Positions 12,272-12,857 of a DNA stretch of 34,891 nucleotides are shown here, in pieces. The stretch is from a bacterium (GTDB taxonomy: Bacteria; Patescibacteriota; Minisyncoccia; Minisyncoccales; UBA10102), in the NCBI GenBank assembly GCA_027624865.1, contig JAQBTT010000004.1, positions 1-34,891 on the forward strand, written 5' to 3'. The translations under genes and the position numbers were made by a program. The notes under the pieces were generated by a model that had not been told where the DNA came from, did not search any database, and was given only the letters and a program-made list of their open reading frames with translations. Numbering within the stretch: the first letter of the stretch is position 1; each line of letters starts with the position of its first letter.

Positions 12272-12302
12272 AAGGGGCCCCGCTTTGAACACAGCGAGGC
12301 CC
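12272..12302 (-). terminator. Rho-independent terminator for the 12337..12597 gene
   Basis: On minus: GGGCCTCGCT GTGTTCAA AGCGGGGCCC followed by CTTTTCTTTTTTC (one mismatch in stem). Confidence 0.65.
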
Positions 12303-12336: not shown

Positions 12337-12597
12337 CTACGATGCTTGCTTTAGGTGTAGGTCAGCAGCTTTTACCAACACCCAGTCCGGAACATCCGCG
12401 GGCGGAGAAATCAATTTACGAATTTCTGCGCCCGCAGCTTTAATCCTTTCTTCCCCTGTACTTTCGGGTGTACCTTTGAGCCAGCGCATCAAGCACTCGC
12501 TTGGCACATTTACCCTTCCCAGAAGCACCACGGCGTCTTCAATCTGCCGTTGCTCCTCCGGAGAAATGGTAAGTTCGTCATCTTGTTTGGTGCGCAT
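12337..12597 (-). CDS. Hypothetical 86-aa protein downstream of an attenuator-like leader
   Basis: ORF preceded by GACAGGAGAGAG (SD) and bounded by a promoter/leader and a terminator. Confidence 0.6.
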   Translation of the reverse strand: MRTKQDDELTISPEEQRQIEDAVVLLGRVNVPSECLMRWLKGTPESTGEERIKAAGAEIRKLISPPADVPDWVLVKAADLHLKQAS

Positions 12598-12630
12598 CTC
12601 TCTCCTGTCAGACCCCTAATTTTGGTTTGC

Positions 12631-12665
12631 GGCCTGAAAAATAGAAATACTCCATTTTTCAAGCC
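12631..12665 (-). other. 12-bp hairpin between attenuator terminator and the 86-aa gene
   Basis: Minus: GGCTTGAAAAAT..ATTTTTCAGGCC (one G-U). Confidence 0.5.
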
Positions 12666-12675
12666 ACAAAAGAAG

Positions 12676-12699
12676 AAACCTCCCGACCTTGGGAGGTTT
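12676..12699 (-). terminator. Attenuator terminator hairpin (3:4)
   Basis: Minus: AAACCTCCC AAGGTC GGGAGGTTT then CTTCTTTTG. Confidence 0.65.
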
Positions 12700-12726
12700 C
12701 ACATATTTGCTTTTGGCTTTACTGTC

Positions 12727-12813
12727 TTATACCAGTTTCAATATGCGAAAACTCCCAACCTGCTTTAAGGCTGAAATAATAACCAACAATTTTCGCAAGC
12801 CAAAAGTATTCAT
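12727..12813 (-). CDS. Putative leader peptide MNTFGLRKLLVIISALKQVGSFRILKLV
   Basis: ORF begins 16 nt past the -10 box, overlaps helix regions 1 and 2, and ends upstream of the terminator. Confidence 0.55.
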   Translation of the reverse strand: MNTFGLRKLLVIISALKQVGSFRILKLV

Positions 12814-12828
12814 AATTTTACTTTACTT

Positions 12829-12857
12829 AATATATAAAAACCCAAGCCTTCTGTCAA
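12829..12857 (-). promoter_or_regulatory. Sigma70-type promoter TTGACA-17-TATATT
   Basis: Minus: TTGACA gaaggcttgggttttta TATATT. Confidence 0.75.

Follow-up and report, generated by a model that had tools for sequence, protein, structure and literature searches.

A predicted leader-peptide attenuator for branched-chain amino acids upstream of an uncharacterised 86-aa gene in Candidatus Wildermuthbacteria

The attenuator unit and its host genome

The window, which is the whole 34,891-nucleotide stretch of DNA that was analysed, is contig 17 in a genome of 559 kb and 98.9% completeness, whose family belongs to Candidatus Wildermuthbacteria (Patescibacteria/CPR); two sister genomes with the attenuator motif described below carry that name. 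On its minus strand lie, in order, aroG, a 101-aa ORF, a putative branched-chain amino acid (BCAA) attenuator and an 86-aa gene, as follows.

14599-14441, minus strand: the window's other attenuator, ahead of aroG (14318-13287), with a promoter, the leader MTKQASTYFFYFMFINPAKSLESL and a terminator
13260-12955, minus strand: 101-aa ORF behind aroG, with a Shine-Dalgarno sequence; codon use atypical (from sequence)
12829-12857, minus strand: sigma-70-type promoter TTGACA-17-TATATT, 11 of 12 consensus matches
12727-12813, minus strand: leader ORF of 28 codons, MNTFGLRKLLVIISALKQVGSFRILKLV (read from sequence; sister leaders comparable)
12788-12797, minus strand: region 1 (TGCGAAAATT), 10 pairs with region 2, present in the minimum-energy fold
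12775-12789, minus strand: putative control codons Leu-Leu-Val-Ile-Ile (TTG TTG GTT ATT ATT), immediately past region 1 (from sequence)
12744-12756, minus strand: region 2, partner of region 1 or region 3 (sequence, and pairing compared with shuffles)
12691-12700, minus strand: region 3, partner of region 2 (anti-terminator) or region 4 (pairing and sequence)
12675-12684, minus strand: region 4, which pairs with region 3 in a terminator stem of 10 bp, then TTCTTTTG (terminator call and sequence)
12631-12665, minus strand: 12-bp hairpin right behind the attenuator terminator (GGCTTGAAAAAT...ATTTTTCAGGCC; read from sequence)
12602-12606, minus strand: Shine-Dalgarno AGGAG just upstream of the 86-aa ATG (from sequence)
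12337-12597, minus strand: 86-aa cargo gene, predicted four-helix protein without known relative (coding-like codons; AlphaFold2)
12275-12302, minus strand: terminator behind the 86-aa gene (terminator call)

A first-pass annotation had proposed a trp-type attenuator here, and its promoter, its 28-aa leader ORF and its 1:2 and 2:3 helices (10 pairs including one G-U, and 8 of 9 pairs, respectively) were all reproduced. The terminator helix that it called is present as well, but is 10 bp long rather than 9 (GAAACCTCCC/GGGAGGTTTC, 12700-12691 with 12684-12675). The leader opens with an ATG 15 nt past the promoter, and its predicted 5′ UTR is about 9 nt long without a Shine-Dalgarno sequence; it is therefore probably translated as an almost leaderless mRNA. 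With the control codons placed as they are relative to regions 1 and 2, a stalled ribosome would cover region 1 and leave region 2 free, and the sister leaders are built alike. The 86-aa gene starts 77 bases downstream of the terminator stem. The stable hairpin in that interval has counterparts behind several sister attenuators, in two recurring sequence types (CTTGAAA..TTTCAGGCC and TTGAGCATAG..GCGCTCAA).

A promoter, a short I/L/V- or F/Y/W-rich leader and a terminator occur together at exactly two sites in the window, those of the 86-aa gene and of aroG; the same scan of 150 dinucleotide-shuffled windows gave a mean of 0.007 sites and never two. The RNA from 12822 to 12675 folds with -48.8 kcal/mol (z = -5.8; none of 200 shuffles as good), and its minimum-energy structure holds both 1:2 and 3:4. 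Compared with shuffles that ignore the coding constraint, P is 0.004 for the 2:3 duplex and 0.022 for 1:2. I, L and V make up 12 of the 28 leader residues (P = 0.02), a modest cluster that is weaker than those of the sisters, and the putative BCAA reading of the window's own codons rests on its relatives. A search for a T-box, a riboswitch or another Rfam leader gave no match, tmRNA being the sole Rfam find in the window at gathering score. The unit has the hallmarks of a ribosome-mediated (trp/ilv-type) attenuator, namely a leader ORF near the promoter with a codon cluster, mutually exclusive 1:2, 2:3 and 3:4 helices of which 3:4 is an intrinsic terminator, and conservation of leader and helices among relatives, most genomes of the family having them at this locus. 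A usual but non-defining trait of the class, a downstream gene that makes or imports the sensed amino acid, is not seen in the case of the 86-aa protein, which matches nothing, and is present in sisters with LeuA.

Genes of the corresponding pathways are missing. Neither ilvD nor chorismate synthase was found in any of 25 family genomes (14 of 14 controls positive for each), and no ketol-acid reductoisomerase (KARI) scored over the cut-off in the 246 genomes of the order. Judged by gene content, the source organism, tiny and of symbiotic type, would be unable to make leucine, isoleucine or valine.

The 86-aa cargo

The attenuator proposal had been staked in part on the 86-aa frame being coding, and the frame looks coding by its codon use, its AGGAG, its own terminator and a confident predicted fold. 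Its codon log-likelihood is +0.09 per codon, whereas the remaining five frames score between -0.04 and -0.27; genes of the window have 0.158 +/- 0.074 on this scale, and wrong frames have -0.103 +/- 0.076. Structure prediction and remote-homology search, both suggested at the outset, were run: AlphaFold2 without an alignment gives four helices (residues 13-28, 33-41, 48-63 and 71-85) with pLDDT 85.9 and pTM 0.71, and neither sequence nor fold points to a relative. None of 146 relatives yielded a homologue, nor did the GTDB genome scan, PADLOC, PHROGs, NCBIfam, Pfam, IMG/VR, the PDB and BFVD fold libraries or the 8,005 ORFs of the fetched loci. The earlier statement that the product is not a recognised biosynthetic enzyme agrees with all collections searched.

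Three candidate identities were considered. The protein matches the LeuA allosteric domain neither in Pfam (PF08502) nor in a model of CPR LeuA domains. Its sole PDB sequence match is weak (KARI 4xdy, residues 304-330 in the C-terminal domain, E = 1.4) and probably due to chance; a KARI fragment, for which neither Pfam nor Foldseek gave support in an order with no KARI over the cut-off, was set aside as no more than a lead. Nor does it match the model of a family of small two-helix proteins, about 60 aa long, that was recognised in other islands of eight genomes, one of them outside the training set.

Attenuator modules between metG and tatD

The first-pass annotation had made its case depend also on conservation of the leader and helices in relatives, and these are conserved: most sister genomes have a leader with BCAA codons, and the helices, at the corresponding locus, in keeping with the trp-type assignment. 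The comparative search that it called for, of leader plus gene, thus recovered the leader but no homologue of the 86-aa protein. In many genomes of the family the metG-tatD interval holds one or more attenuator modules. We compared 17 BCAA leaders, many of them richer in BCAA codons than that of the window (for example MKKISQTMLLLLVLVTNP...). Upstream of tatD, each with a promoter close upstream, lie the BCAA leaders MNNFPARKFISILVLDLRKRLGDFVA in G004, MNSANPNNQLALALPIITLVVLLITTFKGLGVARA in G003, ..NLLKVLLIILPPRLGDF.. in G005, ..MNILLVLILILRNRLGAF.. in G012 and MKRFFQTIILLVIVLILDKREAF.. in G014, and in G018 two leaders, MKKISQTMLLLLVLVTNPTRLGDF.. and the Ile-rich MDIILQIRQAIIGIITIISPTKRGSF..; TTGACA-type promoters are found close to most sister leaders. 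The 2:3 pairing has P <= 0.014 in 13 of 15 scored leaders (against shuffles, coding constraint ignored), and in most of them the I/L/V codons sit between regions 1 and 2, where these amino acids make up 91 of 158 residues versus 24% in the window's genes (P ~1e-19). Terminator pairs have changed on both sides at only two of nine positions among relatives, and covariation is therefore slight. One genome of the window's own genus (G002) has tatD directly after metG and no module, so the module is dispensable. By sequence comparison, then, the metG-tatD locus appears to be an island of amino-acid-attenuator modules of which the window unit is one, with the predicted attenuator kept while its cargo varies from genome to genome.

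A covariance model built from 12 leaders, which matches its own training set by construction, has matches in 49 of the 246 order genomes. Eighteen matches outside the training set were read by eye; about 13 have Leu-, Ile- or Phe/Tyr-rich leaders and about four are chance-like. Weaker matches in other families (G211, G225, G130 and probably G040) have no convincing leader, look chance-like and were discarded.

The Leu-Leu-Val-Ile-Ile codons right behind region 1 had suggested BCAA sensing, and this suggestion gains from the sister BCAA leaders at the same locus, from an Anaerolineae operon and from Leu leaders that precede LeuA or its allosteric domain. The core pattern GGTTGGGAG..CCTCCCAASS..GGGAGG, scanned over one genome per species for 85,462 species, occurs at five loci, on four Wildermuthbacteria-type contigs and one Anaerolineae contig (L072, JAFGHR010000086.1). 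In the latter the leader LLALIIVVIVLVIL (also given as MKSRQNLLALIIVVIVLVILGGALAVGRA) is I/L/V-rich and lies directly before ilvD-ilvB. It shares with the window's leader the core motif GGTTGGGAG...CCTCCCAACC...GGGAGG and the I/L/V-rich peptide, but belongs to a biosynthetic operon in another phylum, and the likeness may stem from convergence or transfer.

Leu/Ile leaders of window-like build stand before full-length LeuA in G014 (the window's family), G149 and G166, before the LeuA allosteric domain alone in G001 (the window's genus), G019, G114, G201 and G125, and before a LeuA/CimA-like domain in G032; where scored, leaders before LeuA or its domain have 2:3 P <= 0.01, again against shuffles that ignore the coding constraint. 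In G001 the order is aroG, Leu (BCAA) attenuator, free leucine-binding domain of LeuA, which differs from the window's order by the window's extra 101-aa ORF. The modules of G001, G014 and G019 thus have the same build as the window's, and that of G001 also the same place after aroG, but their cargo is LeuA or its leucine-binding domain and the 86-aa protein is neither. Free-standing LeuA allosteric domains of about 130-215 aa lie directly behind Leu/Ile attenuators at L137, L143, L144, L155, L148, L149 and L151, in Patescibacteria that, where tested, have no ilvD or KARI.

Where resolved, the leader before aroG, pheA or LeuA fits that enzyme's amino acid. Because ilvD, chorismate synthase and ketol-acid reductoisomerase were not found, the aroG, pheA and LeuA genes of these islands are orphans. 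Phe/Tyr leaders precede aroG in G001, G003 and G007 also, although the family has no chorismate synthase.

Proposed switch, alternatives and known systems

We propose, with a probability of roughly 0.8, that the unit is a ribosome-mediated (trp/ilv-type) attenuator that senses a shortage of charged Leu/Val/Ile tRNA and switches on a four-helix protein of 86 aa in a bacterium that makes none of the three amino acids itself. With BCAA in good supply, the ribosome would clear the leader, the 1:2 helix and the 3:4 terminator would form, and transcription would end near 12670. Under BCAA shortage, the ribosome would stall on Leu-Leu-Val-Ile-Ile and mask region 1; region 2 would then pair with region 3, the terminator would be lost and RNA polymerase would read through into the 86-aa gene. 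This sensing mechanism is well supported computationally. The island as a whole may be read as a set of modules that join an amino-acid-specific attenuator to a fitting cargo (aroG or pheA with Phe/Tyr leaders, LeuA or a free leucine-binding domain with Leu leaders) or to small uncharacterised proteins, and the 86-aa protein would most likely be a starvation-induced small effector or adaptor.

The main rival, which we consider unlikely though worth weighing, is that the attenuator once served a gene for a leucine or BCAA enzyme, that, with the pathway gone, the cargo has become smaller or given way to a useless frame, and that the intact switch now regulates nothing important. The vanished pathway, the sister modules that at the same place hold LeuA or only part of it, the differences in cargo between genomes, the genome without the whole module and an 86-aa protein without homologue would all suit such a relic. 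It accords poorly, however, with the maintenance, across many genera, of the three helices and the position of the codons as well as the promoter and the leader, with a cargo that has a Shine-Dalgarno sequence, coding bias and a confident predicted fold, and with other cargoes that are families of their own (the two-helix family of eight genomes and the 101-aa family that also occurs in G020). Since genomes without the pathway still keep the module, we favor the starvation-induced effector.

That the leader responds to a general slowdown of translation or to another amino acid seems improbable. The window's cluster is short and mixed (LLVII) and a ribosome could stall there under many conditions, but leaders of sister genomes at this locus are strongly rich in I/L/V, the same motif stands before ilvD-ilvB, and the adjacent leaders that precede aroG and pheA are of Phe/Tyr type, so that specificity goes with the cargo. 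It is very improbable that transcription of 12857-12670 always stops at the terminator, yielding a short independent RNA (for a small peptide, or a small RNA as such), while the 86-aa gene has its own promoter, since, for all the strength of the terminator and the self-complete leader unit, no promoter is called between 12675 and 12597, the 2:3 anti-terminator is kept in sister leaders, and comparable units precede LeuA, aroG, pheA and ilvD.

Leader-peptide attenuation is textbook control of amino-acid biosynthesis, and in Proteobacteria ilv/leu leader-peptide attenuators act on ilvGMEDA and leuABCD. The window's unit shares with these systems and their actinobacterial counterparts a BCAA-coding leader ORF, the 1:2, 2:3 and 3:4 helices and a terminator before the gene. 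They control BCAA biosynthesis, whereas the window's unit lies in an organism without ilvD, of a Patescibacteria lineage, has a leader ORF that is seemingly translated almost leaderless, and precedes an uncharacterised 86-aa protein. In Actinobacteria such attenuators are described on ilvBNC and leuA (PMC1262725, PMC11857589), and Naville and Gautheret (PMC2965389) added Firmicutes to leader-peptide systems previously placed only in Proteobacteria and Actinobacteria. Full-text searches of open papers returned no description of leader-peptide attenuators in CPR. The mechanism is thus a known one; new are the lineage, the auxotrophic setting and the non-biosynthetic cargo.

On this reading, attenuation with amino-acid-specific leaders would persist in minimal genomes stripped of the biosynthesis, marking genes that these presumably host-dependent bacteria should turn on under starvation. 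The modules would offer a sequence-only entry to the starvation regulon of Patescibacteria, most of which are uncultured, and would single out specific uncharacterised proteins. They also bring to light committed-step enzymes, and allosteric domains on their own, that are orphans without a pathway (aroG, pheA, LeuA). More tentatively, and at slightly less than even odds, Patescibacteria may use an undescribed amino-acid starvation response in which each cognate leader-peptide attenuator governs one orphan protein instead of a pathway. The proteins in question would be committed-step enzymes (DAHP synthase, prephenate dehydratase, LeuA), the free amino-acid-binding domains of these enzymes, and small helical proteins, the 86-aa one among them. 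As sensors or effectors, they would target either translation in the cell itself or the host from which its amino acids come.

Other cargoes were noted in passing. The 101-aa ORF behind aroG has a homologue (E = 6e-21) in G020, where a Phe attenuator precedes it (L099), and therefore represents a separate protein family. Cargoes of roughly 300-400 aa lie behind attenuators at L061, L105, L110, L101 and L104; they have no Pfam match and resemble unnamed families (G210/G120/G032b and G164/G121). At about position 2353 of L112 (G020), on the minus strand, a Trp-type leader MKSAPQIKNSVRVWWWALQYLKAKSKFDA and a terminator precede an unannotated ORF, and this leader shares its island with Phe, Leu/Val and Ile attenuators.
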